Both the position numbers and the translations under genes were made by a program. From Methylomonas sp. ZR1 (GTDB lineage Bacteria; Pseudomonadota; Gammaproteobacteria; Methylococcales; Methylomonadaceae): DNA of 64,000 nucleotides. How positions within the stretch are numbered: the first letter of the stretch is position 1; each line of letters starts with the position of its first letter. The stretch covers positions 1,860,001-1,924,000 of the forward strand of contig NZ_RCST01000001.1 in NCBI RefSeq assembly GCF_013141865.1, read 5' to 3'. A model generated the notes under the pieces. That model did no database searches, had not been told where the DNA came from, and was given only the letters and a program-made list of their open reading frames with translations. This document shows positions 2,092-61,731 of this stretch, piece after piece.

Positions 2092-2104
2092 GTTGGTTTG
2101 AGAG

Positions 2105-2869: not shown

Positions 2870-2893
2870 TGTCTTTCCAATTTTCTTTTAGCG

Positions 2894-2925
2894 GTAGGAT
2901 GGGTAGAGCGCCAGCGAAACCCATC
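2894..2925 (-). repeat. REP palindrome downstream of the transposase gene
   Basis: The unit reads GTAGGATGGGTAGAGCG on the plus strand and continues to AAACCCATC, with complementary GATGGGT/ACCCATC arms. It is the inverted counterpart of the copy at 3505-3535, so two REP units in opposite orientation bracket the transposase gene, as expected for a RAYT/REP locus. Confidence 0.7.
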
Positions 2926-2947
2926 AGGTAAAAATTCATAAATATTC

Positions 2948-3478
2948 TTATTCCAAATTTAAATCATTTTCCAATCCCATTACTCCGCCCCAATCAACCG
3001 GAATAATCCCTCGCTTAACATACTGATGAAACGATGAATAAGGCCAATCCGCGACAGTTGTGACGTGACCATGTTTTACTGGATTGAAATGAATGTAATC
3101 CACATGTCTGGCAAAGTCGTTATCATCCTTTATTCGGTGCTCCCAAAATCGTCTTTGCCAGATTCCTCTTTCATTTTTACGAATACGGCTATGGGAAATT
3201 TTCTCACCAATTTCAATATGCCTGGAAAATTCTGATTTGATTTGTCGCCAGCGCAAACTGAAATCATCTTCACCATCGGGTAATATCCAAATGGCGTGCA
3301 GATGTTCCGGCAACACTACAATCGCTTCCATTGTAAATGGATGTTTTTGTTTAACCATACGGAAGGATTCTCGCAAAATCTCAATATGATCCGTCAGTAG
3401 TGTTTGGCTTCTATCCGCCAGATTTACCGTAAAAAAGTAAGTGCCACCCTGGACACGATGGCGACGGTATTCAGTCAT
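2948..3478 (-). CDS. REP-associated tyrosine transposase (RAYT, Y1_Tnp family)
   Basis: 176 residues. The HUH motif is visible as EHLHAIW near residue 58-64, and the catalytic-tyrosine helix as VDYIHFNPVKHG near residue 127-138. Both are hallmarks of the Y1 (IS200-like) transposase superfamily, here the RAYT branch (TnpA_REP) that opens with the typical YRRHRVQGGTYFFTVNL segment. RAYTs nick and mobilise REP palindromes but usually exist as single domesticated copies. The gene appears intact and is flanked within about 30 bases on each side by inverted REP units. Composition is AT-richer than the surrounding chromosome. Confidence 0.9.
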   Translation of the reverse strand: MTEYRRHRVQGGTYFFTVNLADRSQTLLTDHIEILRESFRMVKQKHPFTMEAIVVLPEHLHAIWILPDGEDDFSLRWRQIKSEFSRHIEIGEKISHSRIRKNERGIWQRRFWEHRIKDDNDFARHVDYIHFNPVKHGHVTTVADWPYSSFHQYVKRGIIPVDWGGVMGLENDLNLE

Positions 3479-3504
3479 TTTTTTCAGCGTAAGTTGAAGT
3501 TAGC

Positions 3505-3535
3505 GATGGGTTTCGCTTCGCTCTACCCATCCTAC
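3505..3535 (+). repeat. REP palindrome upstream of the transposase gene
   Basis: Plus-strand unit GATGGGTTTCGCTTCGCTCT followed by ACCCATCCTAC. The arms GATGGGT (3505-3511) and ACCCATC (3525-3531) form a perfect 7-bp stem. It matches the reverse complement of the copy at 2894-2925 with few changes, and lies 26 bases before the RAYT start codon. Confidence 0.7.
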
Positions 3536-3749
3536 GAAGCCCATTGAGTTTAGCCCTAGCTTAGTCCTGTGAGCCATCCCGCCAAATTGTTTACCATACA
3601 CCCGAGCAACAGTATCAGTATCTCCAGCAACAATTTTTCTCTAATCCGGTGTAATAAGGCCAGGCTTGGCAAGACTTATAAACATGGCATAAATAGTGAT
3701 ACGACATTATCGGCATCACGCCTGTTTAATTCTTGAGAGTGAGTGATCT

Positions 3750-3947
3750 ATGTTTCGCACCGAACGATTTTTGTCCGTGGTTAATCCTAACACTGGGCTG
3801 CCCGCCTGGTATTTTTTGACTCGGGAAGGCCGTAAAGGGCCGTTTTCCTCTAAAATCAATGCTCAGGTGGCGCTGCACCACTACATCGATAGTTGTGCCC
3901 GACAGGGACTCGCCAGCCGGCGCACGCGGTTGTTGGCCAATGGCTGA
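3750..3947 (+). CDS. Small DUF6316-like conserved protein
   Basis: A 65-residue soluble protein with the string WYFLTREGRKGPF around residues 20-32, a pattern I associate with the short gammaproteobacterial DUF6316 family (function unknown). The rest is a basic, probably helical tail rich in Ala and Arg. The ATG follows a purine-rich GAGAGTGAG stretch. Its stop lies four bases from the stop of the convergent glycosyltransferase gene, leaving no room for a separate terminator. Small size lowers certainty, but codon use and the recognised motif support a real gene. Confidence 0.6.
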   Translation: MFRTERFLSVVNPNTGLPAWYFLTREGRKGPFSSKINAQVALHHYIDSCARQGLASRRTRLLANG

Positions 3948-3951
3948 GCGT

Positions 3952-5052
3952 TTATCCGCTTTGCCAAGTCGTGACTTGACCGGATAAAAAAGCGCGGATT
4001 TTGGCGCAACTTGCCTCCCATCCGGGATGGCCGGCGTAGGCTTGCAAGGCGTTGGCGCCCAATCGAGCCAGCAGCCGCCGATCATGATGCAAGGTCTTTA
4101 ACAAATTGCCTAAGGCGGCATGATCTTCGGGTTCGATCAAATAGCCGTTTTCACCTTCGCGAATAATCTCCCAAGCCGCCCCCGCCGTGGTGCCGATCAC
4201 CGGCAAGCCGAATTGCTGGGCTTCGACATAGACAATGCCGTAACTTTCGTAAGCGGACGGCATGACTAATAAATGATGTTGCCGGTATAAATCGGCCAAG
4301 GCTTCATCTTGCACGGAGCCGAGCAAGGACACGTTTCGCGTCAATCCGGCATCTTGAATCAGGGTTTTAATCTGCGCGACATAGCCCGGCTCCATATCCA
4401 TTCGCCCGGCCACGCTGAGCTGATAGTCCTGTGCAGGCAGTTGGCTAAGGGCTTTGAGCAACACATGCAAACCCTTGCGGCGGATGACGTTGCCCACCAG
4501 CAATATCCTCAGCGGTCCTGGCTCCAGCGCGCGGTTTAACACGGCTGTGTGATCGATGTTTACGCCCGCAAAATTATCGCCGGCCGGCACCGCAATACAG
4601 TGCGGAGGTAATTCGCCGGCCAGTAGCTGTCGGATTTGGCTTAGCGTGGTCCGGCTGTTGGCGATGATGCCGTCCACAGCTTGCAAATAACGGCGCTCGA
4701 TAAGCCGGTACAGCCAGCGGCTATACCAAGGTGCTTGGTCGATGCTGGCTAGCAGATGCACCAGGGCAATTAGCGGGATGTCGAGTTGTTTACTGATGCG
4801 CCGATTCAAATAAAACACGGCCGGATGCGCCATGGCGTCTTGAATCAGAATATCCGGCTTGGCTGCGGCGATTTTCTCCAGCAAATCGCCGGTAATATTT
4901 TCCGCCAACAGCCGCCAATAATTACGCGGTGGCAAGCTGATGATGTTGACCTGATCACCTTGGCTTTGCAGGTAAGATACCAACTTGCGGTTATACAAAT
5001 AACCGCCGCTGACGCTATTCATGTCGCCAACGACCAGCAAGCCAATGTGCAT
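3952..5052 (-). CDS. Family 4 (GT-B) glycosyltransferase
   Basis: About 366 residues. The N-terminal acceptor domain opens with MHIGLLVVGDMNSVSGGYLYN, including the glycine-rich loop near residue 15. The C-terminal nucleotide-sugar domain shows ILLVGNVIRRKGLHVLL near residue 185, then VMPSAYESYGIVYVEAQQFG and PVIGTTAGAAWE, carrying the E-x7-E signature of GT4 enzymes. I chose the inner ATG at 5052 over an upstream one 17 codons earlier because homology-like sequence starts there and the upstream choice would overlap the preceding gene. It is the last gene of the GTP-cyclohydrolase/reductase/PTPS set and starts 13 bases after its neighbour, so it may glycosylate a pterin- or pyrimidine-derived product. 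Confidence 0.8.
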   Translation of the reverse strand: MHIGLLVVGDMNSVSGGYLYNRKLVSYLQSQGDQVNIISLPPRNYWRLLAENITGDLLEKIAAAKPDILIQDAMAHPAVFYLNRRISKQLDIPLIALVHLLASIDQAPWYSRWLYRLIERRYLQAVDGIIANSRTTLSQIRQLLAGELPPHCIAVPAGDNFAGVNIDHTAVLNRALEPGPLRILLVGNVIRRKGLHVLLKALSQLPAQDYQLSVAGRMDMEPGYVAQIKTLIQDAGLTRNVSLLGSVQDEALADLYRQHHLLVMPSAYESYGIVYVEAQQFGLPVIGTTAGAAWEIIREGENGYLIEPEDHAALGNLLKTLHHDRRLLARLGANALQAYAGHPGWEASCAKIRAFLSGQVTTWQSG

Positions 5053-5065
5053 GATGTTTGCCGGT

Positions 5066-5443
5066 TTAGAACGCCAAACGGTAAGCCGCCCAGCAGGTGG
5101 CATTTTCCCAGAGTTTTACCCGTAGCCTACCGGTGCCGGGCGGATTGACAGCCGCCGCGATTTTTTCGCAGATGATCCGGCTGAAGTGCTCGATGCTGGG
5201 ATTTAAACCGGCAAACTCCGGCTTGTCGTTGAGCATTTGGTCGCGGAAGTCGGCGACGATTTCATCCAAGGCGGCTTCGATGGCAACGATGTCCACCAGG
5301 TAGCCGTGCTGGTCCAGTTCCTCGCCATCGATACGCACTTCCGCGATGTAATGGTGGGCGTGGGGTTGGTTTTCGCTGCCCCAGTCGCCGCCGATTAAAT
5401 AATGGTTGGCGATAAAGTCTCGGCTGACGGCTACGCTGTACAT
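5066..5443 (-). CDS. 6-pyruvoyl-tetrahydropterin synthase / QueD-like protein lacking the usual catalytic cysteine
   Basis: 125 residues of the T-fold PTPS/QueD family. Likely zinc ligands are the histidine in FIANHYLIGG (residue 14) and the two in PHAHHY (about residues 28 and 30). A conserved Glu sits in LNPSIEHFS (about residue 85), and WENATCWAAYR closes the fold. In QueD/PTPS a catalytic cysteine lies a few residues before the HGH motif; here that stretch reads GSENQPHAHHY with no cysteine, so a queuosine-pathway role is doubtful. Its neighbours are a GTP cyclohydrolase II, a RibD-type reductase and a glycosyltransferase, which suggests a specialised GTP-derived pathway. A repeat-bearing gap of 185 bases separates it from the dehydrogenase upstream. 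Confidence 0.75.
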   Translation of the reverse strand: MYSVAVSRDFIANHYLIGGDWGSENQPHAHHYIAEVRIDGEELDQHGYLVDIVAIEAALDEIVADFRDQMLNDKPEFAGLNPSIEHFSRIICEKIAAAVNPPGTGRLRVKLWENATCWAAYRLAF

Positions 5444-32919: not shown

Positions 32920-32988
32920 GAATCCTCGTTTGGCGGGCCGTCCCGCCTTGCTTTGCCAACGCCGGGCCGTCCCGGCGCGGATTACGGT

Positions 32989-37127: not shown

Positions 37128-37225
37128 CTGACCTCCCGGGCTTTTATCCCGCCGTGTAGCTCCCCGAAAGAAGCCGGCAACTCTCGGTCGCTGACGCTCA
37201 AAATTGAGCCGGAACCCTAGTCACC
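37128..37225 (-). ncRNA. Guanidine-I (ykkC) riboswitch
   Basis: Read on the minus strand, this holds the strongly conserved ykkC segments in order: CTAGGGTTCCGG (about 37219-37208), then CGACCGAGAG (about 37191-37182), then ACACGGCGGG followed by ATAAAAGCCCGGGAGG (37158-37132). These match the guanidine-I class consensus as I remember it. The aptamer lies in the leader of a guanidine importer/deiminase/carboxylase operon, the classical regulon. Binding of guanidinium normally turns expression on. Confidence 0.93.
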
Positions 37226-37276
37226 ATTTTGTTAAGGCGCTTTTATGATCGCGCCTCACGTGTTGTAATTCTATAC

Positions 37277-48641: not shown

Positions 48642-48842
48642 CTAGTTGGAACCCGCTAATGCAGAATCTTTTTGCTGGCCCAGCCGAAAACGTTCGCGCT
48701 TGTCGATCTGGACGATGCGGCCGTCGTGAATCACGACTTCAACCGAGCCAAACCGAATATCCTGCACAATCGTCGCGATTTGCAATGCAATCTCCTTGTT
48801 ATCGCCTTGCTTCAATGCATGGCCGTTAAGTTCAATCGCCAT
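48642..48842 (-). CDS. YezD family small protein (DUF2292)
   Basis: 66 residues from the ATG at 48842, which has a near-perfect AGGAGG site seven bases upstream; longer versions add an unrelated N-terminus with no ribosome site. IATIVQDIRFGSVEVVIHDG followed by RIVQIDKRERFR is the signature of the YezD/DUF2292 family, short proteins often encoded beside sulfate and cysteine assimilation genes. It is transcribed divergently from cysT across a shared 310-base region, which suggests common control by CysB. Biochemical role unknown; a regulator or adaptor in sulfur metabolism is guessed from neighbourhood. Confidence 0.8.
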   Translation of the reverse strand: MAIELNGHALKQGDNKEIALQIATIVQDIRFGSVEVVIHDGRIVQIDKRERFRLGQQKDSALAGSN

Positions 48843-49152
48843 ATAGCCTCCTGAGGTATGGTGGGTTATCGTGGTTTGATGAATCCTTGTCTTGGCAGCA
48901 TTAGCGCCAATGACCGTGGGACAAATGGTAAGAAAACCACAAAGCGATTGAAAACGATATAAACAGAAATATATATCTGTTAATTGGATATATAACATGG
49001 CGAATATTTACCCTCCCATCCTGGCCGCAATAGCCAAAATTCGCCCGATTGTTATCTAAATAAAAGATTATCAATTCAATTTATATCATTTCCGTTGGCA
49101 TTTAAGTTTCTCTATCCTGTCAGCACCTACTGACTGTTTCCAGAGAAACACC
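48843..49152. other. Divergent regulatory region yezD/cysT
   Basis: 310 bases without a gene. The central and right parts are very AT-rich (for example GTTATATATCCAATTAACAG read on the minus strand near 48980, and AAAAGATTATCAATTCAATT near 49062-49081), as expected for CysB-binding DNA, which has a poorly defined AT-rich consensus. A cytosine-poor TTGGCATTTAAG lies near 49098. I cannot fix exact promoter elements. Confidence 0.4.
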
Positions 49153-49980
49153 ATGACTCAAAGCAACATCATGCCGGGCTTTCGACCGGCACTGGCCTAC
49201 ACCTTGTTCTACCTTGGACTGGTGGTACTGATCCCCTTGAGCACCCTGGTATTTAAGAGCTTGCAACTGGGTTGGGGCGAGTATGTGGACATCATTAGCA
49301 ATAATCGAGTGGTATCGTCGTTCCGGGTCAGTTTCGGTACCTCTCTGATAGCCGCCTTGGTGGCCGGCCTGTTTGGTTTTGTGATTGCCTGGGTGTTGGT
49401 GCGTTATCCCTTTCCCGGCAAACGCTTCTTGGACGCTTTAATCGATCTACCCTTTGCCTTACCGACGGCGGTGGCCGGCGTCATATTAGCGACCATTTTT
49501 CAGCCCAGCGGCCTGCTGGGTAAATGGTTGATGAGCTCATTGGGCGTGCAAGTAGCTTATAAGCCGCTGGGCATAGTGGTGGCATTGATTTTTATCGGCA
49601 TTCCTTTTGTGGTGCGGACCATCGAGCCGGTATTGCAGGAATTTGATACCACGATGGAAGAAGCGGCCTCCAGTCTGGGCGCTACTCGCTTACAAGTGTT
49701 TGCCCAGGTGATCTTTCCCAACATTTTTCCGGCACTGTTAACCGGCGTATCGCTGGCGTTTGCCCGCGGGGTGGGAGAGTACGGTTCGGTGATTTTTATC
49801 GCCGGCAATCTGCCTTATATCTCGGAAATCGTCCCGTTATTGATCATCACCAAACTGGAGCAGTACCAATATGCCGGGGCGACGGCGATTGCACTGACGA
49901 TGCTGCTAGTGTCGTTTTTGTTGCTACTGATCGTTAATTTATTGCAGCTCTGGGCGCGCCGCCGCTCCGGGCAAATTTAG
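49153..49980 (+). CDS. cysT: Sulfate/thiosulfate ABC transporter permease CysT
   Basis: 275 residues with six helices, the standard length for CysT (CysU). The EAA loop is [31 protein letters not shown] near residue 172-202 (EAA---G motif). [22 protein letters not shown] near residue 209 is a highly conserved CysT signature. It imports sulfate or thiosulfate with CysW and CysA. The start follows CCAGAGAAACACC. No periplasmic sulfate-binding protein (Sbp/CysP) gene is present in the window, so that subunit must be encoded elsewhere. Confidence 0.95.
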
Positions 49981-49988
49981 GAGACATC

Positions 49989-50852
49989 ATGCACGCCAAT
50001 GTTCATGTGATTAGCGACGCCACCGGCCAAGCACACTTCAAAGCGCTACACGACCCGTTTTGGGTGCGCTGGGGCCTGGTCGGCATCGCGGTAGGTTTTA
50101 TTGTGTTGTTTCTCTGCGTCCCGCTGGGTTTGGTGTTGTATCAGGCCTTCTCCAAAGGTTGGCAAGCCTATTGGACAGCGCTGGCGCAACCGGATGCCAT
50201 CGCCGCGATGCAACTGACCTTGCTGGTGGCATTGATAACGGTTCCGCTGAATACCGTATTCGGCGTCGCCGCCGCCTGGGCCATCACCCGTTTTGAGTTT
50301 TGGGGCAAAAGCTTATTGACCACCTTGATCGATTTGCCATTCTCGGTATCGCCGGTTATTTCGGGCCTGATTTTTGTTCTGATGTTCGGCGCTCAAGGCT
50401 GGTTCGGACATTGGTTTTCCGAGCATGACATTAAAGTGATATTCGCGGTACCCGGCATCGTGCTCGCAACCATCTTTATCACCTTTCCTTTTGTGGCGCG
50501 CGAACTGATTCCGCTGATGCAGGAAATGGGCAACGAGGAGGAAGAAGCGGCGCTATCGCTAGGTGCCAGCGGCTGGCAGACATTTTTTAAAGTGACTTTA
50601 CCCAATATCAAATGGGCTTTGCTGTACGGCGTGTTGCTGTGCAACGCCCGGGCGATGGGCGAATTCGGCGCGGTGTCCGTGGTATCCGGACATATTCGCG
50701 GCGTGACCAATACCCTGCCCTTGCATGTGGAAGTCAGTTACAACGATTACGACGTGATCGGCGCTTTTTCCAGCGCCTCGATATTAGCCTGTCTGGCCAT
50801 CGTTACGCTGGTTTTGAAAAGCGTTTTGGAATGGAAGCAGGCCAGAGCCTAA
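49989..50852 (+). CDS. cysW: Sulfate/thiosulfate ABC transporter permease CysW
   Basis: 287 residues, six helices. [20 protein letters not shown] near residue 178 is the EAA loop, and [20 protein letters not shown] near residue 218 is the conserved CysW segment. It forms the membrane heterodimer with CysT. It begins eight bases after the CysT stop with an AGGAG site overlapping the gap (TTTAGGAGACATCATG). Nothing unusual. Confidence 0.95.
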
Positions 50853-50908: not shown

Positions 50909-51952
50909 ATGAGTATTCTGCTAAACAACATCAGCAAAAACTTCGGCAAATTTGCCGCCTTGTACGACGTCAACCTGGAAATTCCGGAAGGCGAGCTGGT
51001 AGCTCTGCTGGGCCCCTCCGGTTGCGGCAAGACCACCCTGCTCAGAATCATCGCCGGCCTGGAAACCCCGGATTTCGGCCGGGTACTGCTCAGCGGCGAA
51101 GACAAGACCGAGCAACATGTCAGCCGGCGCGGGATTGGTTTTGTGTTTCAACATTACGCCTTGTTCCGGCATATGACGGTGTTCGACAACATCGCCTTCG
51201 GTTTGCGGGTCAAGCCGCGCAAGGAACGGCCTACCGAAGCCTTTATCAGCAAAAAAGTGCACTCTTTGTTGGAGTTGGTACAACTGGATTGGCTGGCCGA
51301 CCGCTTCCCGGATCAATTATCAGGCGGCCAAAGGCAGCGGATAGCTTTAGCTAGAGCCCTGGCCGTAGAACCCAGCGTATTGTTGCTGGACGAACCGTTC
51401 GGCGCGTTGGACGCCAGCGTGCGCAAAGATCTGCGGCAATGGCTGCGCAATCTGCATCAGGAATTGCATGTCACCAGTATTTTTGTGACCCACGATCAGG
51501 AAGAAGCCATGGAAGTCGCCAGCCAAGTCGTCGTATTGAATCAAGGCCGCATCGAGCAACAAGGCGCCCCGGCCGATATTTACGATCATCCGGCCAATGC
51601 CTTTGTTTCCAAATTCATCGGGCAAACCAACGTCTTCGATCTATCGGAAACCGAAAGCAACTGGCTGCAACGCGCAGGGATTCTGGCGGAAAAACCGCAA
51701 GGCATCTTCGCACACGTCCGCCCGCATCATATCGACATCGTCAAAGCCGAAGAAGCCTCCGGTTCGCCGGTAACTTTGAAAGACTGGCAACATCTGGGCG
51801 CGACGATACGCATCGAACTGTTCAATCCGCAACATAACGGTTCCGGTGCGACGCTGTTTGCGGAGATGCCCAACGAACGCTTCAAACAACTGAATTTAAA
51901 CAAGGGCGACCGCGTGGCGGTGCATATCAAACAAGCGCATTGGTTTAATTGA
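50909..51952 (+). CDS. cysA: Sulfate/thiosulfate import ATPase CysA
   Basis: 347 residues. The ATPase domain has [18 protein letters not shown] (Walker A, near residue 35), [21 protein letters not shown] (Q-loop), [16 protein letters not shown] (signature, near residue 135), [12 protein letters not shown] (Walker B) and [11 protein letters not shown] (H-loop). A C-terminal TOBE-like regulatory part (about 240-347) contains [10 protein letters not shown]. This is a complete CysA. It lies 56 bases after cysW. Confidence 0.95.
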
Positions 51953-52059: not shown

Positions 52060-52962
52060 ATGAATCTAAATCAGCTTGAATTATTGCGCGTCCTGAAGGA
52101 CACCCAGTTCAACCAATCCAAAGCCGCGGAAATCATGCATGTCGTGCAGTCGGCCGCCAGCCGACAGTTACAATTATTGGAGGAGGAATTGGGCTCGCCG
52201 CTCTACGAACGCCACGGCAAAAAACTGCTGGGCCTGACACCGCTGGGCGAGCAGGTGATGGAACAGGTAGACAGGATCAATCAAGCCAAAAAGAACATCC
52301 TGTCGATAGCCGACGACTTTCGCGAAAATCGCAACGGCGCCTTGCATATCGCCACCACCCATACTCAAGCCAAGTACTTGCTACCGGAACCGGTGCAAAA
52401 ATTCCGGGAGAAATATCCGGGCATCACCATTTACATGGTGCAATCGTCACCACAAGAATTAATAGAGCAGCTCCATCAGCATCGGGCCGATATTGCCATC
52501 TGCACCGAAAAGCTGGACGAGGACGAGAAGCTGGTCGTCAAATCCTGCTATGAATGGCAACACATCGCCGTGGTGCCGCGCCATCACCCCTTGGCGCAAG
52601 GCGATGTGACGCTGGGCCGGCTGGCCGCATTTCCGATTTTGACTTACTCGCAAGGCTATACCGGCCGTTCGACCATCGAAAAAGCCTTTAAGAACGCGGG
52701 TAAGGAACTGGACATCACCCTGTCCGCCGCCGATTCCGACATCATCAAAACCTATGTCAGATTGGGTTTGGGCGTGGGGATTATCGCCGGTACGTCTTAC
52801 GAAGCGCGCAACGACAATGATTTGGTCGCCAGGGATTTATCGCACCTGATCCCACGCTCGATGACGAAAATCGCCTATTTGAAGCAATTATATCTACCCA
52901 CTTATTTGCAATATTTCATTAACGAGCTGCTTGCCAAAGCCGCCAAGGAGCATGAATATTAA
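52060..52962 (+). CDS. cysB: LysR-type regulator CysB
   Basis: About 300 residues from the ATG at 52060. MNLNQLELLRVLKDTQFNQSK is followed by the helix-turn-helix HVVQSAASRQLQLLEEELGSPL and YERHGKKLLGLTPLGEQV, characteristic of CysB/Cbl. The effector domain holds TTHTQAKYLLPEPVQKF near residue 100 and YSQGYTGRSTIEKAF near residue 200, segments that bind O-acetylserine or sulfate in CysB. It should activate sulfate uptake and cysteine synthesis genes when sulfur is scarce. A longer frame upstream (from 51949) adds unrelated sequence and is rejected. It is placed inside the regulon it likely controls. Confidence 0.93.
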   Translation: MNLNQLELLRVLKDTQFNQSKAAEIMHVVQSAASRQLQLLEEELGSPLYERHGKKLLGLTPLGEQVMEQVDRINQAKKNILSIADDFRENRNGALHIATTHTQAKYLLPEPVQKFREKYPGITIYMVQSSPQELIEQLHQHRADIAICTEKLDEDEKLVVKSCYEWQHIAVVPRHHPLAQGDVTLGRLAAFPILTYSQGYTGRSTIEKAFKNAGKELDITLSAADSDIIKTYVRLGLGVGIIAGTSYEARNDNDLVARDLSHLIPRSMTKIAYLKQLYLPTYLQYFINELLAKAAKEHEY

Positions 52963-53167: not shown

Positions 53168-53197
53168 TTGACAGCCTTCGTTTAAACCAAGTACTTT
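53168..53197 (+). promoter_or_regulatory. Sigma-70 promoter upstream of cysK
   Basis: TTGACA (perfect -35, 53168-53173), an 18-base spacer and TACTTT (53192-53197) as -10. Transcription would begin near 53203-53205, only about 20 bases before the terminator hairpin. An AT-rich tract lies 40-60 bases upstream, as expected for CysB activation. Confidence 0.6.
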
Positions 53198-53225
53198 AAA
53201 AAAAATCGCTGACCGGACCACCGGA

Positions 53226-53269
53226 AGCCAGTACGCCTGAATTGATAAGCAGGCTGCTGGCTTTTTTTT
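53226..53269 (+). terminator. Intrinsic terminator in the cysK leader
   Basis: AGCCAG (53226-53231) pairs with CTGGCT (53257-53262), and GCCTG (53235-53239) with CAGGC (53250-53254), around an AATTGATAAG loop. The stem is followed by a run of seven more T (53263-53269). It sits after the promoter and before cysK, so it must be read through for the encapsulin operon to be expressed from that promoter; otherwise a transcript of about 65 bases results. Confidence 0.8.
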
Positions 53270-53303: not shown

Positions 53304-54281
53304 ATGACGCATTGGTATCCAGATAACTCGCAATCAATAGGCAAAACCCCATTAGTCCGGCTAAACCGCATTACCGACGGCGCGCCGGTGACTTTGCTGG
53401 CTAAAATCGAAGGCCGCAATCCGGCTTATTCCGTGAAATGCCGCATCGGCGCGGCGATGATTAACGACGCCCAGCAACGCGGCTTGCTGACCGCCGGCAA
53501 AGAACTGATAGAACCCACCAGCGGCAATACCGGCATCGCCCTAGCCTTCGTAGCCGCCGCGCGCGGCATTCCACTGACCCTGACCATGCCGGAAACCATG
53601 AGTCTGGAACGGCGCAAATTATTGGTGGCTTATGGCGCCAAACTGGTCCTCACCGAAGGCGCCAAGGGCATGAAAGGCGCGATAGCCAAAGCCGAAGAAA
53701 TTGCGGCCTCCGATCCGGACCGCTATGTACTGCTGCAACAGTTTAAAAACCCCGCCAACCCCAGCATCCACGAACTAACGACTGGCCCGGAAATCTGGAC
53801 CGACAGCGACGGTGCCATCGACATTTTAGTCTCCGGCGTCGGTACCGGCGGCACGATTACCGGGGTTTCGCGCTATATCAAATTCAAACAACGCAAACCT
53901 ATCATTTCTATTGCGGTAGAACCGGAAACTAGCCCAGTGTTAACACAGTTCCGGGCTGGCGAACCGCTACAGCCGGCGCCCCATAAGATCCAGGGCATCG
54001 GTGCCGGTTTCGTGCCGGATGTACTGGATTTATCCTTGGTTGACGAAATTGCCTTGGTCAGTAACGACGATGCCATAGCCTATGCCCGCCGCCTGGCGCG
54101 CGAGGAAGGCATCTTGGCCGGCATTTCCTGCGGTGCGGCAGTGGCCGCCGCGGTGCGGGTGGCCAAGCGTCCGGAACACGAAGGCAAAACCATTGTGGTC
54201 ATCTTGCCGGATTCCGGCGAGCGCTACTTGAGCTCGGCCTTGTTCGAAGGCCTGTTCGATCCGCAAGGTGTAGCGCTATGA
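53304..54281 (+). CDS. cysK: Cysteine synthase (O-acetylserine sulfhydrylase)
   Basis: 325 residues from the ATG at 53304 (GGGAG site upstream). [12 protein letters not shown] near residue 12, the PLP lysine in [11 protein letters not shown] (near residue 43), the [10 protein letters not shown] loop (near residue 70) and [14 protein letters not shown] (near residue 176) are classic CysK elements. It joins sulfide to O-acetylserine to give cysteine. It overlaps the serine acetyltransferase gene as ATGA, giving a coupled two-enzyme unit. It corresponds to SrpG of the cyanobacterial srp locus. The product, cysteine, is the substrate of the encapsulated desulfurase encoded downstream. Confidence 0.95.
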
Positions 54282-55207
54282 CCTTAAGCGAACACGGCCA
54301 ACGCTGGGAAATCGATGCTCTGGTTGCAGAACTGCGCGAACTGCGCCTGCAATCTCTGGAAAACCGGCATCGCCGTGAACATCCGCCCAAATTGCCTTCC
54401 CGTAAGATTTTGAGCCAAATCGTCGACAACTTGGGCGCGGCGCTGTTCCCAAACCGGCTGGGAATGCCCGACCTGACTGACGAAGGCATCGATTATTTCG
54501 TCGGCCACACGCTGGATAGTCTGCTACGGCAATTGCAACGGCAAATCGGCCTGGAATTGCAATTTGTCGCCGAACAGCAAGGCCTATCCGTGGATACTCG
54601 CAGCCAAGCGACAGACATCACCCGGCAGTTTGCGGCCCAGTTGCCTGCTGTGCGGCAATTGATCGACACAGATATTCAAGCTGCCTACGAGGGCGACCCC
54701 GCCGCGCGTTGCGCCGATGAAGTGTTGGTTTGCTATCCAGGCATCACCGCGGTGATTCATCACCGACTAGCGCATGTGCTGTACCAATTGGGTCTGCCGT
54801 TGGTGGCGCGCGTGATCAGCGAAGTTGCGCATTCCGCCACTGGGATCGACATCCATCCGGGCGCGCAAATCGGCGAAAGCTTTTTTATCGATCACGGCAC
54901 CGGTGTGGTAATCGGCGAAACGGCAGTCATCGGCCGCCGAGTGCGCTTATATCAAGCGGTGACGCTGGGCGCCAAACGCTTTGACAAGGACGACAACGGC
55001 ATTCTGGTCAAGGGTAACGCCCGCCACCCCATCGTTGAAGACGATGTGGTGATTTATGCCGGTGCCACGATCCTGGGACGTATCACCATTGGCCGCGGCT
55101 CGACGATAGGCGGCAACGTCTGGCTCACCCACAGCGTGCCGCCGGACAGCCTGGTCAGCCAGGGCCAGAATCGCACGGAAGTATTTGCCGGCGGCGGCGG
55201 GATTTAA
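54278..55207 (+). CDS. cysE: Serine O-acetyltransferase (EpsC/SrpH type)
   Basis: 309 residues, longer at the N-terminus than E. coli CysE. The helical N-terminal domain includes [20 protein letters not shown] near residue 49. The left-handed beta-helix (about residues 170-300) contains [20 protein letters not shown] with the catalytic His/Asp pair, [12 protein letters not shown] and [14 protein letters not shown]. It ends in GGGGI, the type of tail that docks into cysteine synthase. It supplies O-acetylserine to CysK. The gene is coupled to cysK by a four-base overlap and precedes the encapsulin shell gene by about 100 bases, the gene order known from family 2A encapsulin loci. Confidence 0.93.
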
Positions 55208-55305
55208 TCTCAACGGCCAATCGGCGCTTTTTCAAACCAACATTGATTAATCAGTCACTAAAAACACTTTAACCAACCACCACCCACTAAGAAAGGAAAA
55301 TCACC

Positions 55306-56223
55306 ATGTCAGACATTCATCAAGCCCATACCGCGTTAGGCGACGTCGCTGCGCGCACCTTATCCAACGCCACCAAAACCGTGCCCATGATGGGTACGAT
55401 CACGCCTCGCTGGCTGGTGCATTTAATGCACTGGGTACCAGTCGAAGCGGGTATTTACCGGGTCAACAAAGTGAAAAGCGAAACCAGCATCGCCGTCGAC
55501 TGCTCCAGCCTGGACGAAAAAGTGTTGCCGCAAACCTATGTGGATTACGAAGAATGGGGTCGCGAATATCGCTTGAACGCCGTCAACACCGTGCTAGACG
55601 TTCACACCCGCGTGGCCGATTTGTACAGCAGCCCTTACAACCAAATCCACGAACAGCTGCGCTTGACCATCGAAACCGTCAAAGAGCGTCAAGAAAGCGA
55701 GCTGATCAACAATGCCGAATACGGCTTGTTGAACAACGTCGCGCCCGCGCAAAAAGTGCAAACCCGCAAAGGCTCGCCAACTCCTGACGACCTGGACGAA
55801 TTGATTGCCCGAGTCTGGAAAGAACCCGCCTTCTTCCTGGCCCACCCACGCGCCATCGCCGCCTTCGGCCGCGAAGCGACTCGCCGCGGCACACCGCCAC
55901 CAACCATTTCCATGTTCGGTTCGCAATTTTTAACTTGGCGCGGCCTGCCTTTGATTCCGACCGACAAGCTAAAAATCACCAACGGCAAAACCAATATCCT
56001 GCTGTTGCGCACCGGCGAAAGCCGTCAAGGCGTAGTCGGTTTGTATCAACCCAATCTGACCGACGAACTGAGCATGGGCCTGTCCGTGCGTTTCATGGGC
56101 ATCAACCACAAAGCTATCGCCTCCTATCTGGTCTCCCTGTATTGCTCGCTGGCGGTGTTGACCGAGGACGCCATCGGCGTATTGGAGAATGTCGAAATAG
56201 GCAACTACTATGACTACCAATAA
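55306..56223 (+). CDS. srpI: Family 2A encapsulin shell protein
   Basis: 305 residues with an AGGAAAA ribosome site. The sequence begins MSDIHQAHTALGDVAARTLSN; later WLVHLMHWVPVEAGIYRVNK, LYSSPYNQIHEQLRLTIETV and NNAEYGLLNNVAP match SrpI-type shell proteins of the HK97 fold. No cyclic-nucleotide-binding insertion is present, which places it in family 2A rather than 2B. The shell is expected to form a 60-subunit, T=1 capsid. It overlaps the desulfurase gene by 14 bases, so cargo and shell are co-translated. Characterised homologues store elemental sulfur produced by the encapsulated cysteine desulfurase. Confidence 0.93.
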   Translation: MSDIHQAHTALGDVAARTLSNATKTVPMMGTITPRWLVHLMHWVPVEAGIYRVNKVKSETSIAVDCSSLDEKVLPQTYVDYEEWGREYRLNAVNTVLDVHTRVADLYSSPYNQIHEQLRLTIETVKERQESELINNAEYGLLNNVAPAQKVQTRKGSPTPDDLDELIARVWKEPAFFLAHPRAIAAFGREATRRGTPPPTISMFGSQFLTWRGLPLIPTDKLKITNGKTNILLLRTGESRQGVVGLYQPNLTDELSMGLSVRFMGINHKAIASYLVSLYCSLAVLTEDAIGVLENVEIGNYYDYQ

Positions 56224-57853
56224 CGTTGACCTGGCTGGCCTGGCGCAACAAGCGCTGAGCGGCGGCACCGTGCCCGCGGGCTTGCCGGATGCCGCCGAAT
56301 TGACGCGCTTGGCCAATCAGATTTTCCTGGAAGTGCCTAATGCTGGCGAAGCCATCGATACCGTACCGGTCTCGGCGGCAACTGCCGTACCGTTTAATAA
56401 CGTCAGTTCCGGTTTCGACTCCCGGCCTGGCATCGACGACACGGCTATCTCAGCCTTGGTGCAACGCAGTTTTGCTTTGCCCGGCACAGCGGATTTGCAA
56501 ACCGCCCTTGCCACACCGTTTGGTAAAACTCAGCCCACCACGCCTAGTACGTCATCGTTTTATTTTATAACCGAGGTATCCGCGTTGGCACGTGCGGCGC
56601 AAGTACCGGGTTTGGGTTCCGCGCATCCGCCGTTTGATGTCCATGCGGTGCGGCGAGACTTTCCAATTTTGCAAGAGCGTGTAAACGGTTATCCACTAGC
56701 TTGGCTGGATAACGCCGCTACCACGCAAAAGCCGCAGGTGGTGATTGATCGGATTTCCGAGTTTTATCAGCACGAAAACTCCAACATCCACCGGGCCGCG
56801 CATGAATTGGCTGCACGTGCTACCGATGCCTATGAAGGCGCACGACAAATCGTCGCGCGTTTTATCAATGCCTCGTCCGCCGATGAAGTAGTGTTCGTGC
56901 GTGGTGCTACCGAAGCCATCAATCTTGTAGCCAAAAGTTGGGGTAAGCAAAACATTGGCGCGGGCGACGAAATCGTCATCAGCTGGCTGGAACACCACGC
57001 CAACATCGTGCCCTGGCAGCAACTGTGCGCGGAAACCGGTGCGGTACTTAGAGTGATCCCGGTCGATGATAACGGCCAAGTGATTTTGGCCGAGTATCAA
57101 AAACTGCTGAATGCCAAAACCAAGCTAGTGTCGTTTACGCAGGTCTCGAATGCTTTAGGCACCGTCACGCCGGCGCAGGAAATGATCGAACTAGCCCACC
57201 GGGCCGGCGCTAAAGTGTTGCTGGACGGCGCGCAATCGGTGTCGCATTTAAAGGTTGATGTACAGGCTTTGGATTGCGATTGGTTGGCGTTTTCCGGCCA
57301 CAAAATCTTCGGTCCGACTGGTATCGGCGTGCTGTACGGCAAAGCGGAAGTTCTGGAGGCTACCCAGCCTTGGCAAGGCGGCGGGAATATGATCGAAGAC
57401 GTCACCTTCGAGAAAACCGTCTACCAACCCGCACCCGCCAAATTCGAAGCCGGCACCGGCAATATTGCCGACGCGGTGGGTTTGGGTGCGGCGCTGGAAT
57501 ATCTGAACAAAATCGGTATCGAAAATGTAGCCCGTTACGAGCATGAATTGCTGGTTTATGCGATGCATGCCTTGCAAGCCATACCGGGTCTGCGTTTGAT
57601 CGGCACCGCGCCGGAAAAAACCAGCGTGGCGTCGTTCGTGATAGACGGTCATAGCACTCAAGATATTGGTAAAGCCTTGAATGAGGCCGGCATCGCCGTG
57701 CGCTCCGGCCATCATTGCGCACAGCCCATTTTGCGACGCTTTGGTTTGGAAAGTACCGTAAGACCCTCGTTGGCGTTTTATAACACTTACGAGGAAATCG
57801 ATAGGTTAACGGCAACCCTAAAACGGTTGCAGTGCACTTCTCGGCGGTTTTAG
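56210..57853 (+). CDS. SufS-type cysteine desulfurase with N-terminal encapsulin-targeting extension
   Basis: 547 residues. Residues 1-142 are an Ala/Pro/Gly/Thr-rich, low-complexity extension with short conserved-looking segments (DAAELTRLANQIFLEVP near 28-44, VQRSFALPG near 84-92, SSFYFITEVSALARAAQVPG near 115-134). The SufS domain starts at VHAVRRDFPILQ and has DNAATTQKP, HRAAHELAARATDAYEGAR, the PLP lysine in FSGHKIFGPTGIGVLYG, and the catalytic cysteine in SGHHCAQPILRRFG. The extension is the kind that loads desulfurase into family 2A encapsulin shells. It takes sulfur from cysteine as persulfide. It is the last gene of the operon. Confidence 0.93.
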   Translation: MTTNNVDLAGLAQQALSGGTVPAGLPDAAELTRLANQIFLEVPNAGEAIDTVPVSAATAVPFNNVSSGFDSRPGIDDTAISALVQRSFALPGTADLQTALATPFGKTQPTTPSTSSFYFITEVSALARAAQVPGLGSAHPPFDVHAVRRDFPILQERVNGYPLAWLDNAATTQKPQVVIDRISEFYQHENSNIHRAAHELAARATDAYEGARQIVARFINASSADEVVFVRGATEAINLVAKSWGKQNIGAGDEIVISWLEHHANIVPWQQLCAETGAVLRVIPVDDNGQVILAEYQKLLNAKTKLVSFTQVSNALGTVTPAQEMIELAHRAGAKVLLDGAQSVSHLKVDVQALDCDWLAFSGHKIFGPTGIGVLYGKAEVLEATQPWQGGGNMIEDVTFEKTVYQPAPAKFEAGTGNIADAVGLGAALEYLNKIGIENVARYEHELLVYAMHALQAIPGLRLIGTAPEKTSVASFVIDGHSTQDIGKALNEAGIAVRSGHHCAQPILRRFGLESTVRPSLAFYNTYEEIDRLTATLKRLQCTSRRF

Positions 57854-57994: not shown

Positions 57995-58025
57995 TCGGTA
58001 ACGCCAATTATCCTGGCGTTACCGA
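57995..58025 (-). terminator. Perfect 12-bp hairpin after the PepSY gene
   Basis: TCGGTAACGCCA (57995-58006) and TGGCGTTACCGA (58014-58025) pair fully around ATTATCC. It lies 12 bases beyond the minus-strand PepSY stop and about 140 bases past the plus-strand desulfurase stop, so it may terminate both convergent transcripts. Confidence 0.6.
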
Positions 58026-58037
58026 ACATTTATTATC

Positions 58038-59678
58038 TTAACTACGGGTTTCCGTAGCCAGCTCCAGCGCCGACTGTGGTACGGCTGCCTTGCGTTTTTT
58101 CGGCTTAAAGGTTTTGACCAGCCTTTTCCATCCCACCACCAGCGAACTGGCGCCCAGTACCAAACCGAAACCCACCCAGGTCAACATCCAGGCATCCCAG
58201 ATCGGCCGGTGATACAGCCAACCGAAATCCCAATGATGCAAACCCGAATATAACCAGCGAAACACCCGGCGACTGCGATCCAGCTTGGCTAGCAAGCTAC
58301 CGTCTTGCGGGTCCAGATAAAACCGGGTGCCGGCTGCGTCTGCCAGCTCTACCACGACCACCGGCAACGGTTTTTCCACCAAGCTTTGATGATGCCGCGG
58401 GTAATAATAGCTGTCGTAGTCTTCCAAGAGTTCCTGGCTGGCGATGGGCGTATCTTGCGACACACGCAAGATCGCGTCGGTTACCGAGATTTTATTGAAT
58501 TGCTGAACCGCCCCATCCACCGCTTGCGGTAATCGCTGACCATCGCGGCCATAAGCCAATAACACTGCTTCGCCACCCAAACGCCGCCAACTCAACTCGA
58601 CAACATCCTTGCCATCCGCGTTGCTAAGCGGGCCGGGTTGCCAATTGCGCATTGCATCGGGTAACACCTTGCCCAAATATCTGTTCAGTTCTTGCCGTGT
58701 GAGATTGGCTTCGGAAAATAATTTGCCGGGATTGGTGTCGATAAATCCGCTCAGCGCCCAAGACAGCGCCACGGTCCCGCCGATCAAACCGCTCCAGAAA
58801 TGCCATTTAAACCAAAACTCCCGGTACGGTTGCGTACGGCCTTGCGAATAGGTGGGCTTGCCGTTAAATCCCGGCCGCCAGCGCAACCAGCCGATAATCA
58901 AACCGGTGATGCACGCGATAGTCGCGCCCAAGCCGGACCACAATTGCACGTCGTGGCGATATTGCCCCAAACCAATGGCCTCCAGAGGTTTGAATAAATG
59001 CAGCCAATTGCCGGCATAGTAAAACGCCCTATCGACGCGGGTCGAGGCATGCAGGACTTCGCCGGTACGCGCCGAAATCAACAACTCGTCACCGTCGTCG
59101 CTAGCTACCCGATGAAACGGCCGCAAAGCCTCCTGATTACGCAGAATAATCGGGGCTTCCACCGTTTCCACTACTTGCAAATTATGGTTAATACCCTCGC
59201 GTTTGAACCAGTCGTCAGCGATGCGTAGCGCCTGCTCCACCGAAGTTTCGCGCAAGCTGCCGTCCAGTGCGGACAGCGCAAAGCGCGCGCCTTTGGTATC
59301 TTCCACCAGCCAAAACGGCTCGTCGTTACGTCTTACCAAGCGGGCATCGGCTATACCGACAGACGCTTCGGCCCAATTGCCCGATTCGGTTTTAGCTTGC
59401 GCGCCATGTTCACCCATGTTTGCCGGCTTGGATTGATGTTGCGCGGCAAAAAGCTTACGTTGCTCGGCACTGCGGTCCCAGGCTTCGCCCAAGCTCAACC
59501 AGCCTACTTCGGGCGCCAGGCTTTCCGCGTGCGCCAATTGCTGGCTGCGGCTTTGCGTGGTCGGCGTCGAATAGATAATCGCAATGCCGGTAAAAAACCA
59601 GAAAAACATGAACAAAGCCAACACCACCCCCAGCCAGCGGTGGGTTTCATATAACAACCAATTCAAAGACTTTTTCAT
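58038..59678 (-). CDS. PepSY-associated TM-helix membrane protein
   Basis: 546 residues. The N-terminal helix (WLLYETHRWLGVVLALFMFF, near residue 8-27) with its HRWLG is the standard opening of PepSY_TM proteins. PepSY-like periplasmic segments lie around residues 110-210 and 415-470 (FYLDPQDGSLLAKLDRSRRV). Further helices occur near 245-265, 295-315 and 490-515. The family includes PiuB-like iron-uptake-associated proteins and flavin/heme-linked reductases; histidines in the helices (HLFKPL, WHFWSG, LHHWDF) could bind heme. It is the last gene of a periplasmic redox operon. A strong AGGAGG site precedes the ATG. Function unproven. Confidence 0.8.
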   Translation of the reverse strand: MKKSLNWLLYETHRWLGVVLALFMFFWFFTGIAIIYSTPTTQSRSQQLAHAESLAPEVGWLSLGEAWDRSAEQRKLFAAQHQSKPANMGEHGAQAKTESGNWAEASVGIADARLVRRNDEPFWLVEDTKGARFALSALDGSLRETSVEQALRIADDWFKREGINHNLQVVETVEAPIILRNQEALRPFHRVASDDGDELLISARTGEVLHASTRVDRAFYYAGNWLHLFKPLEAIGLGQYRHDVQLWSGLGATIACITGLIIGWLRWRPGFNGKPTYSQGRTQPYREFWFKWHFWSGLIGGTVALSWALSGFIDTNPGKLFSEANLTRQELNRYLGKVLPDAMRNWQPGPLSNADGKDVVELSWRRLGGEAVLLAYGRDGQRLPQAVDGAVQQFNKISVTDAILRVSQDTPIASQELLEDYDSYYYPRHHQSLVEKPLPVVVVELADAAGTRFYLDPQDGSLLAKLDRSRRVFRWLYSGLHHWDFGWLYHRPIWDAWMLTWVGFGLVLGASSLVVGWKRLVKTFKPKKRKAAVPQSALELATETRS

Positions 59679-59768
59679 TGCCGCCCTCCTAAACGCCCTT
59701 TGTTGATGACACTATCCGTTGAAAATTACTTTGCACTTCTCCGCCCCTATACACACTTCCTTAAACTC

Positions 59769-60359
59769 TTATTGACCAGCCTGCGCGGACTTGCCTAAAC
59801 CTTGCACAATCTCCAGGGCCTTTTCGACATTTTCGGCGGGTTGCAAGTCGCCGACGCTAGCGACGATTTTGCCGTCCGCCGCTACCACAAACGTGGTCCG
59901 GGCTATGGCACCGTGATTGACCTGTACACCGCGACTATCCAAGCGCCCGGTTTTTGATTCGTCCACGCTCAAGCCATAAGCATTGGCAATCTTGCCGTCC
60001 GTATCCGAGGCCACCGGAAATTTGCTGGCGCAATAATCAGGATCGGCCGAGAACTCGTTCAACCGCTCGATACTATCCAAGGACACGCCCACGATCGTCG
60101 CACCGGCGGCGGCGAATTTGTCGTGATTGATCGCAAAGGTTCTCGCTTGAATATTGCAGCCGCGCCCATAAGCGGTCGGATAGAAATACACCACCACCGG
60201 ACCTTTGCCGCGCGCTTCCTTCAAGGAATAGGCAAACGGTTTGCCGGCAAACGAGGCTTGGGTCTCGAAATCCGGCGCGACATCGCCTTCTTGCAAGCCG
60301 GCCAGCACCGAAAATGCCACTAACAGCGATAATGCGCTTCCCAGAAAAAATCGTTTCAT
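59769..60359 (-). CDS. Periplasmic peroxiredoxin (AhpC/TSA-BCP type), paralogue 1
   Basis: 196 residues with a Sec signal peptide (cleavage near residue 20). The thioredoxin-fold domain opens with GDVAPDFETQASFAGKPF. The peroxidatic cysteine is in YPTAYGRGCNIQARTF (near residue 68), where most members have C-x-x-E rather than C-N-I-Q-A. A second cysteine in DYCASKFPVASD (near residue 113) may be resolving. RGVQVNHGAIARTTFVV near residue 143 is shared with the second paralogue. It probably reduces peroxides in the periplasm, perhaps with electrons from the cytochromes encoded beside it. Start chosen at ATG with GGAG upstream. Confidence 0.85.
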   Translation of the reverse strand: MKRFFLGSALSLLVAFSVLAGLQEGDVAPDFETQASFAGKPFAYSLKEARGKGPVVVYFYPTAYGRGCNIQARTFAINHDKFAAAGATIVGVSLDSIERLNEFSADPDYCASKFPVASDTDGKIANAYGLSVDESKTGRLDSRGVQVNHGAIARTTFVVAADGKIVASVGDLQPAENVEKALEIVQGLGKSAQAGQ

Positions 60360-60412
60360 CTCAACTCCGTAAAAAAGATAGGGAATACGTTTCAGTCGAA
60401 CTCCTAAGCTCG

Positions 60413-61135
60413 CTACAAGCCCGACAGGTATTCCACTAAGGCATTCAGCTCATCGTCGTTCAGGGACTTGGCAATTTTGTTCATCACCGCTTCCGGACTG
60501 TTCTTGCGCTCGCCCAGTTTCCAATTGGTCAATTGACTGCGCAGATAAACCCGGCGTTGTCCGACAATCACCGGATAAATGACGTTATCCGCAATCTTGC
60601 CTTTGCCGTTCTCACCGTGACAACTGGCACAAGCAGGCAAATCCCGCGCCGCATCGCCGTTTACAAACAAATTTTTAGCGAGCGGATTGTCGGCGATCCG
60701 CTCGCCTCGCATGACTTTTTGGCTGGCAAAATATGCGGCGATGTCGGCCATGTCTTCTTGTGTCAGATCGGCGGCCATCACATTCATGATTTCGTGATTG
60801 CGAGCGCCGGATTTAAAATCGCTGAGCTGTTTAACCAGATAGCCGGCGTATTGACCGGCGTGGCTGGGAATTCTGACATCGCCGCTGTTGCCGTCCTCGC
60901 CATGACACTCCTGGCAACGTTCGTCAGCCGACTTTTGTTTACCCACGACCGGGTTGCCGTTGCCGATGCGTTGCAAAGAAAGTTCATCGCCCTGCTCCGC
61001 TAATACGGTTTTCGCCGAGGCCAATAAGGCAAAGGTACTAACGGCCAGCCACGGGCTGCGGCGGCGCCAATGATGCCTTCCTCCACGGGGTTTGGTGTCG
61101 GGCGCCACAGCGCATAGCCAACGGCAAAACCCCAT
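60413..61135 (-). CDS. Diheme cytochrome c4-like protein
   Basis: 240 residues. Two covalent heme motifs, CQECH (near residue 74) and CASCH (near residue 168), each with a following methionine-containing helix (MNVMAADLTQEDMADIAAYF; and ALVEYLSGL at the end). This tandem class I arrangement is cytochrome c4. The N-terminus is unusually long and basic (WRRR) before the hydrophobic stretch LAVSTFALLASA, so the true start may differ, but no alternative ATG is available. The gene lies between two peroxiredoxin paralogues, starting two bases after the upstream one ends. It probably passes electrons in the periplasm. Confidence 0.88.
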   Translation of the reverse strand: MGFCRWLCAVAPDTKPRGGRHHWRRRSPWLAVSTFALLASAKTVLAEQGDELSLQRIGNGNPVVGKQKSADERCQECHGEDGNSGDVRIPSHAGQYAGYLVKQLSDFKSGARNHEIMNVMAADLTQEDMADIAAYFASQKVMRGERIADNPLAKNLFVNGDAARDLPACASCHGENGKGKIADNVIYPVIVGQRRVYLRSQLTNWKLGERKNSPEAVMNKIAKSLNDDELNALVEYLSGL

Positions 61136-61137
61136 GC

Positions 61138-61731
61138 CTAGTTCGCCTTCGGTCGATCAGCGGCGAGCTTTTCCACGACTTCCAGTGCTTTGGCGACATT
61201 TTCTTCCGGCTTCAAGCCGCCCAAGGTCGCAGCGATTTTGCCGTTCGGCGTGATCACGAAGGTGGTGCGCTCCGCAAAGCCGTGGTTGATTTCCACGCCC
61301 CTACTATCGGTTTTACCCGGCGCGGCGGCTTTCACGGCAATATCGTAATTGCCGGAGATTTTGCCGTCGGCATCGGATGCCACCGGAAACTTGCTGGCGC
61401 AGTAATTAGGATCGGCGGAAAAGTCGTTCAGGCGCTCGATGCTGTCCAGCGATACCCCGACGATACTGGCACCGGCGGCGGCAAATTTTTCGTGATTGAC
61501 CGCAAAGCTATGCGCCTGCAAATTGCAGCCGCCGGTATAAGCGGACGGATAGAAATACACGACAACCGGACCGTTTTTCAAAGCATCCTCAAGCGTGTAA
61601 TTAAAAGCCTTGCCGGCCAGGGAAGCTTGCGCTTGAAAATCCGGGGCTGGATGGCCTTCCGGCAGCGCGGCCATCACCGGCAAAGCAAAGACGGCAGGCA
61701 GCAGGCTTTTCAAAAATAAGTTTTTCATCAT
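61138..61731 (-). CDS. Periplasmic peroxiredoxin (AhpC/TSA-BCP type), paralogue 2
   Basis: 197 residues, clearly homologous to the protein encoded at 59769-60359 along its whole length. A signal peptide ends near residue 21 (PVMAA). The peroxidatic cysteine is in YPSAYTGGCNLQAHSF (near residue 69), the second in NYCASKFPVASDADG (near residue 114). RGVEINHGFAERTTFVI near residue 144 parallels the other copy. The duplication flanks the cytochrome c4 gene, an arrangement suggesting a tandem duplication within the operon or functional pairing. Starts at either of two adjacent ATG codons (61731 or 61728). Confidence 0.85.
   Translation of the reverse strand: MMKNLFLKSLLPAVFALPVMAALPEGHPAPDFQAQASLAGKAFNYTLEDALKNGPVVVYFYPSAYTGGCNLQAHSFAVNHEKFAAAGASIVGVSLDSIERLNDFSADPNYCASKFPVASDADGKISGNYDIAVKAAAPGKTDSRGVEINHGFAERTTFVITPNGKIAATLGGLKPEENVAKALEVVEKLAADRPKAN

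Follow-up and report, generated by a model that had tools for sequence, protein, structure and literature searches.

Is the sulfur-encapsulin operon of Methylomonas sp. ZR1 transcribed together with the sulfate importer and regulator genes upstream of it, or does it carry a switch of its own? The operon occupies positions 53304–57853 of the 64,000-nucleotide (nt) stretch analysed here (the window), where open frames and profile searches identify CysK, CysE, a family 2A encapsulin shell and its cargo desulfurase. The initial annotation had regarded the contiguous run from sulfate import to storage as unusual and proposed that it may form a single regulatory unit. We give a probability of roughly three in four to a different reading, namely that an ordinary sulfur-encapsulin operon stands under an apparently new antitermination leader common to a sulfur regulon. 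The new part is the leader; the encapsulin operon itself is known.

The 341-nt gap between the CysB-family gene and cysK holds a promoter-like site, a conserved leader and a terminator. In the aligned gap, conservation forms a block from 53205 to the end of the U-tract at 53269, with the following features.

53205–53269, + strand: leader RNA, hairpin 1 overlapping an intrinsic terminator (alignment, folding, covariation).
53208–53210/53226–53228 (P1) and 53213–53216/53221–53224 (P2), + strand: predicted pairs of hairpin 1.
53225 into the U-tract at 53262–53269, + strand: predicted stem of the intrinsic terminator.
53168–53197, + strand: promoter-like site, −35 TTGACA (53168–53173) and a weak −10 TACTTT (53192–53197), from conservation.

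The block also stands before the shell gene of two loci, L148 and L057 (titled Methylomonas koyamae SM2), and the window holds a single copy of its 19-base core, against an expectation of 0. TTGACA is kept in five aligned Methylomonas loci, and 35 of 56 leaders at cysK, cysE or shell genes carry a TTGACA-like site (at least five of six bases) 30–50 nt upstream of P1, compared with 5.96 in shuffles. A general promoter scan was uninformative (7 sites found, 7.7 expected in shuffles), and the TTGACA site is absent from its list. Judged by its position, this promoter would start transcription about where hairpin 1 begins, leaving a leader peptide no room.

Two mutually exclusive folds are predicted for the leader, and both covary. 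In fold A, P1 (GCU/AGC) and P2 (CCGG/CCGG) are separated by an asymmetric internal loop, GA opposite A, and capped by a variable terminal loop that is mostly ACAA or ACCA (29 and 17 of 76 copies). The GA and the A are found in 72 and 75 of the 76 copies, respectively, as bases that lie within the search seed. In fold B, the terminator, the 5′ base of the stem is the same AGC that forms the 3′ strand of P1. The 5′ strand of P1, GCT, which the seed does not include, is shared by 54 of 58 terminator-type copies. When folded in isolation, 55 of 57 hairpins form P1 and 56 of 57 terminators pair the AGC, with median energies of −8.1 kcal/mol for the hairpin and −20.1 kcal/mol for the terminator. Alignment A1 contains 53 of the 57 terminator-type leaders, leaving out three near-duplicates (L051, L054 and L148) and the degenerate L149. 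The terminator and P2 together have 96.7% paired cells (90.8% in shuffles) and 63 double-change cells (12.4 in shuffles), and slid versions fall far lower. For P1 and P2 across all 76 copies, the values are 97.1% (93.2%) and 18 (3.2); within the terminator class alone they are 99.5% (97.5%) and 8 (0.8). The outermost P1 pair is G–C in 56 of the 58 cysK/cysE/shell copies and A–U in 8 of the 18 others. Column 22 has a pairing partner in each fold; in L067 it reads G in place of A, columns 6 and 68 both read C in place of T, and neither fold is lost.

With P1 forced to form, the median energy is −21.2 instead of −26.1 kcal/mol, a cost of about 5 kcal/mol, and the terminator stem, which otherwise reaches 2 bases into the U-tract (47 of 57 leaders), ends 2 bases short of it (48 of 57). 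In these models, the shift has the geometry of an antiterminator, and the default state would be OFF since the predicted energies favour the terminator fold. We propose that the operon would be a transcription unit apart from cysTWA–cysB, whose own promoter reads into a leader of about 65 nt. The unbound leader would adopt the terminator fold and transcription would stop. Under sulfur starvation, hairpin 1 would be stabilised, more probably by a protein than by a small molecule, and the AGC of P1 withheld from the terminator base; the stem would shorten and part from the U-tract, and the operon would be read. CysE and CysK would then make cysteine, and the desulfurase (CyD), drawn into the shell via its N-terminal extension, would strip sulfur from it for storage inside. 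Porin and sigma-54 activator genes, which carry this hairpin as well, would belong with the operon to one sulfur regulon. We favour a protein over a metabolite as the ligand because hairpin 1 is so small. SrpI is upregulated on sulfate starvation according to the available part of PMC8049743, which names no sensor for the encapsulin operon.

The leader resembles the ribonucleic antiterminator (RAT) of BglG/SacY, which, in the excerpts available (PMC3369931, PMC4347634), is likewise one short hairpin partly overlapping an intrinsic terminator in exclusive folds, here predicted. The RAT, in contrast, serves carbohydrate rather than sulfur genes and measures 29–30 nt in those excerpts against 21 nt for hairpin 1. 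The antiterminator leaders of ANTAR proteins (eut, nasF, amiE) also act through a hairpin overlapping a terminator. In the descriptions at hand these carry dual hairpins with six-base loops that have A at position 1 and G at position 4, whereas the cysK-type leader has one hairpin and a four-base loop; with unfit loops and an invariant G at the would-be A1, this candidate was ruled out. Porin-type leaders often bear two short hairpins in tandem, as does the guanidine-II (mini-ykkC) riboswitch. The loop consensus of that riboswitch is ACGR. It was ruled out as well, given that the loops here are not ACGR (ACGA in 2 of 76) and Rfam returns no match. More broadly, a known RNA family was rejected because Rfam returns nothing for the leader up to E = 1 (its one weak hit is elsewhere), nor for five loci with other copies. 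Compared with these partial descriptions, the leader would work like a Bgl/Sac RAT yet fits no family considered here. No such motif appears in the passages available from PMC6429828, PMC2965389 and PMC3766115. Among the literature matches listed (titles and beginnings of abstracts), none concerns an RNA leader of encapsulin or cysK–cysE operons in these bacteria, which we do not take as a claim that none is published. None of the listed matches links encapsulins with sulfate importers or methanotrophs.

Where else does this hairpin occur? Copies were sought in 113 sources (the window, L051–L150, L183–L185 and L218–L226), a selection of the fetched loci. At up to 4 mismatches there were 138 unique near-matches; we excluded the 62 that had over 3 mismatches or lacked a full P2, one of which, in L218, is a real cysK leader with a broken P2. 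Of the 76 distinct copies with a full P2, 27 precede cysE, 25 cysK, 6 the shell gene and 10 a porin of the alginate-export type; 7 lie at a porin of the Porin_O_P type, 1 of these within an open reading frame (ORF) that was called too long, and the last copy precedes a sigma-54 activator. A T-run is present in 57 of the 58 cysK/cysE/shell copies. With every kept copy at one of these genes, a scattered genomic repeat is unsupported. This gene list is biased, most sources having been fetched for their encapsulin. A whole-genome pattern search, which is not so biased, gave 85 hits in 61 relatives (46 with a hit), compared with 4 for the reversed pattern. In 20 second-copy regions picked by hand from these hits, eight leaders precede a sigma-54 activator of 358–379 residues, one precedes cysK and one an OsmC gene, and most others precede porins. 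The eight activator leaders, unused in building the leader model R1, score 62.7–67.8 bits. The second copy in the own genome, at 1938880 on the minus strand, precedes such an activator. This copy (C1:1934001-1942000; L257 1-8000, leader 4846-4902 minus) scores 64.3 bits and lies outside the window, about 23 kb past the shell; the activator 3′ of it has 358 residues and matches PF00158. The OsmC leader, in L276 (G057 C1:1014001-1021500), sits near a second, partial shell match at 1016796, and a desulfurase-like ORF lies at 4842-5324 of the same region.

Of 80 named encapsulin loci, 49 match the leader model at 30 bits or more, most of them model-building sequences; L095, unused in building it, scores 43.6 bits. 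No 30-bit match was found in five loci titled Nitrosomonas, in Synechococcus elongatus, Variovorax and Methylosinus, or in seven loci titled Zoogloeaceae, Azoarcus, Rhodoferax, Hyphomicrobiales and Betaproteobacteria MS502-43, some of which have short flanks. Among 369 genomes of the class, 32 have a match with E no higher than 0.01; the only ones above 60 bits are G000 and G039, which belong to the own order, and we treat the next best (32.7 bits) as background. Two Methylomonas genomes with no shell match, G023 and G033, keep cysK–cysE; the cysK leader of G023 has a broken P2, and none was found at the cysK of G033.

Several observations weigh against the antitermination leader and its regulon. 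Of the 31 loci without a 30-bit match, 23 extend 3 kb or more upstream of their shell gene, and Methylovulum psychrotolerans L079 and Methylobacter L107 are among them; the leader is thus not essential to sulfur-encapsulin operons. Two of four genomes drawn from the own order (G693 and G042) have no match under strict filters. Methylophilaceae leaders, inspected by eye, mostly have no TTGACA site. Most porin-type copies lack a terminator and must act another way. Full P2 pairing was itself a filter criterion and the internal-loop bases belong to the search seed, and the sequences are related, so that the shuffle counts are not probabilities.

Could the element instead be a DNA operator, an inverted repeat CCGG-N4-CCGG bound by a transcription factor beside an ordinary terminator, with no RNA switch? 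The palindromic hairpin core is compatible with this, since two half-sites may likewise give rise to paired changes, and the porin copies that lack a terminator would suit it as well. An operator does not account for the asymmetric internal loop, even with its bases in the seed, nor for a hairpin 3′ strand that doubles as the terminator base and contains a column covarying with partners in both folds; moreover, the promoter-like site upstream would place the element within the transcript. We therefore regard an operator as unlikely. Direct binding of a small metabolite such as O-acetylserine, which would make hairpin 1 a miniature riboswitch, is a more serious though still doubtful alternative. 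The conserved internal loop and the association with sulfur genes speak for it. A second similar hairpin, reminiscent of tandem-hairpin riboswitches, lies upstream in 17 of 26 porin leaders, compared with 0 of 58 terminator-type leaders and 349 of 5000 random stretches, by an expression written after the sequences had been seen (an earlier, narrower one gave 4 of 26). A hairpin of about 21 nt with seven pairs is, however, very small for an aptamer, and its terminal loop varies.

Downstream of the leader, the genes are those of an SrpI-type sulfur-encapsulin operon, a kind already known, as far as sequence can identify them.

53304–54281, + strand: cysK, cysteine synthase A (TIGR01139 452.8 bits, cut-off 350.95).
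54278–55207, + strand: cysE, EpsC-type serine O-acetyltransferase (NF041874 170 bits, cut-off 150), ending GGGGI.
55306–56223, + strand: family 2A encapsulin shell, SrpI-like (NF041162 528.9 bits, cut-off 380).
56210–57853, + strand: family 2A cargo cysteine desulfurase, CyD (NF041166 894.5 bits, cut-off 800).
56210–56650, + strand: N-terminal cargo-loading extension of CyD, about 147 residues, with LTRLANQIF (56300–56326) and SSFYFI (56552–56569).
57995–58025, + strand: terminator-like hairpin 3′ of CyD, 12-pair stem, from a pattern scan only.

We place the cysK start at the ATG at 53304, where the ORF list has an upstream TTG at 53268. cysK and cysE overlap by 4 nt, shell and desulfurase by 14 nt. 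CysE stays below the TIGR01172 cut-off (172.1 against 210.65 bits). The shell is 100% identical in Methylomonas sp. LW13 and others, in the order Methylococcales; it scores 355.5 bits on PF19307, and the solved chain nearest to it by sequence is SrpI 6x8m (493.7 bits). For SrpI particles, PMC8049743 gives a size of 25 nm. It also exceeds the cut-off of the family 2B model (426.5 against 400 bits), with its best stretch at model positions 208–449 of 450. The 305-residue protein has no cyclic-nucleotide-binding domain, a Pfam search returning SrpI-like only. Two further marks of family 2A are present, a shell over the cut-off and an adjacent desulfurase with an N-terminal loading extension. The initial annotation had named these four genes and their sulfur context correctly, and the two tests proposed with it, a profile search of the shell and a comparison of the CyD extension with known loading extensions, both came out in its favour. 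The loading motifs published for SrpI-associated desulfurases, LARLANEFFS and AASPYYFLDG in the available part of PMC8049743, recur in recognisable form in the extension. With loosened expressions, both motifs are found in 64 of the 90 extensions that could be delimited among 94 CyD proteins, compared with 0.000 and 0.004 per motif in shuffled extensions.

The GGGGI end of CysE suggests how the first two products work together. Where cysK lies immediately upstream, 29 of 32 related CysE proteins end in isoleucine; elsewhere 5 of 48 do (Fisher p 2e-13; 3 C-terminal edge cases set aside). The C-terminal isoleucine tail of CysE docks in CysK, so the two proteins probably form the cysteine synthase complex where both genes stay together. 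By analogy with published homologues, the sulfur taken from cysteine would then be stored. That the encapsulated desulfurase instead passes sulfur to an acceptor for iron–sulfur clusters or thio-cofactors seems improbable: elemental sulfur storage is reportedly, by its title, the subject of Benisch et al. 2024, and the gene after CyD here encodes a PepSY-TM protein on the other strand, not a rhodanese. In favour of sulfur supply, it is an alternative proposed in the accessible part of PMC8049743, and a rhodanese gene follows cyd on plasmid pANL of S. elongatus. The own genome holds one shell, four CysK/CysM-type matches over the cut-off (that of the window included), two other CysE, several desulfurase-type proteins and two CysB-family regulators of similar score; because of these further copies, the cysteine genes of the operon are a dedicated extra set and not the sole route to cysteine.

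The genes upstream of the leader are the following.

48642–48848, − strand: OscA-like DUF2292 small protein, divergent from cysT (PF10055 57.7 bits).
49153–49980, + strand: cysT, sulfate permease (TIGR02139 373.5 bits, cut-off 246.1).
49989–50852, + strand: cysW, sulfate permease (TIGR02140 420.7 bits, cut-off 329.1).
50909–51952, + strand: cysA, sulfate transport ATPase (TIGR00968 387 bits, cut-off 342.75).
52060–52962, + strand: CysB-family LysR regulator (NF009327 305.7 bits, below the cut-off of 402).

The importer named in the initial annotation is confirmed by these scores; its CysB is a CysB-family LysR protein that stays under both curated cut-offs (305.7 against 402 and 290.1 against 436 bits). 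We put the regulator start at residue 38, where the profiles begin; the ORF reaches upstream to 51949. The DUF2292 protein likewise stays under the NF033785 OscA cut-off (47.4 against 85 bits). No sulfate-binding protein gene adjoins cysTWA, a point that, like the leader, is absent from the initial annotation; the sole match in the genome lies at 2601930–2602841, about 690 kb off.

Gene order in relatives removes the layout as a novelty. On S. elongatus pANL the order is cysK, epsC, srpI, cyd and rhodanese, which matches the window in the cysK–epsC–shell–cyd run and the overlap of cysK with epsC, with 73% identity in the shell and 80% in CysK. The plasmid differs in the rhodanese 3′ of cyd, where the window has a PepSY-TM gene on the opposite strand, in a CyD N-terminal domain reported as 225 residues, against about 147 here, and in the leader, since model R1 finds nothing there up to E = 1. 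In the available part of PMC8346489, the accessory genes described as most enriched in such operons are those for serine O-acetyltransferase and rhodanese. Gene order was counted in 40 of the 80 named loci, those with at least 8 kb on both sides, which were picked by shell similarity and are mutually related. Upstream of the shell, cysE lies no more than 2 kb away in 33 of the 40 and cysK no more than 2.5 kb away in 10. cysW lies within about 10 kb in 26, upstream on the same strand in 8, upstream on the opposite strand in 9, downstream on the same strand in 8 and downstream on the opposite strand in 1. Of 100 loci, 49 have a sulfate-binding protein gene within the region fetched around the shell (representative 481.8 bits on TIGR00971). 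A draw of 398 genomes from the phylum gave a shell match over the cut-off in 17, the own included. In 4 of these the match starts only near position 50, within frames of 471–520 residues. Leaving these 4 and the own genome aside, 12 of the 17 remain, with fetched flanks of uneven length, and cysW is nearby in 4 of the 12. With cysW near the shell in many loci and in varied orientation, a sulfate importer beside a sulfur encapsulin is a recurrent arrangement with several layouts.

Co-transcription of importer, regulator and encapsulin genes as one unit from a cysT promoter, as first suggested, is accordingly very unlikely. Its support is that all eight genes share a strand and that the importer lies upstream on the same strand in 8 of the 40 loci. 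In the others it is divergent, downstream or not found, and here the TTGACA promoter-like site and the attenuator-like leader with its terminator intervene between the CysB-family gene and cysK. Some read-through from the cysT side is possible.

Other features of these loci and of the window are recorded here. G020 (L219 9301-9561) has, besides cysE, just the first ~87 shell residues, with no cargo gene found in the stretch, which is either a decaying encapsulin locus or an assembly fault. EAL-domain genes lie near sulfur-encapsulin loci in three clusters of ORFs, present in 16, 15 and 8 of the 100 loci (representatives L068 11597-12478, L089 6784-7683 and L106 9024-9902, that of L068 below the Pfam cut-off), and a DUF2325 gene cluster (L118 5231-5575) in 20 of 100. 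Adjoining the operon, PepSY-TM, AhpC/TSA and cytochrome c genes lie on the minus strand at 58038–61731, and PepSY homologues are likewise present in shell regions L051, L055, L056, L077 and L083. Elsewhere on the minus strand of the window are a guanidine-I riboswitch (37131–37231, 80.1 bits) and a guanidine-II riboswitch (32934–32978, 37.9 bits), both over their gathering scores. G+C falls to 0.417 within 2001–4000, against 0.498–0.624 in the remaining 2-kb steps.

A leader with two exclusive, covarying predicted folds at encapsulin, porin and activator genes offers a concrete and easily tested candidate switch. On balance, we favour a previously undescribed family of RNA antiterminators in gammaproteobacterial methanotrophs (Methylococcales) and methylotrophs (Methylophilaceae), which would sense sulfur starvation directly or via an RNA-binding protein and jointly switch on encapsulin storage, cysteine synthesis, outer-membrane porins and a sigma-54 activator. 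If true, this would reveal a sulfur-linked RNA regulon in methanotrophs and provide a handle on a sensor of sulfur starvation.

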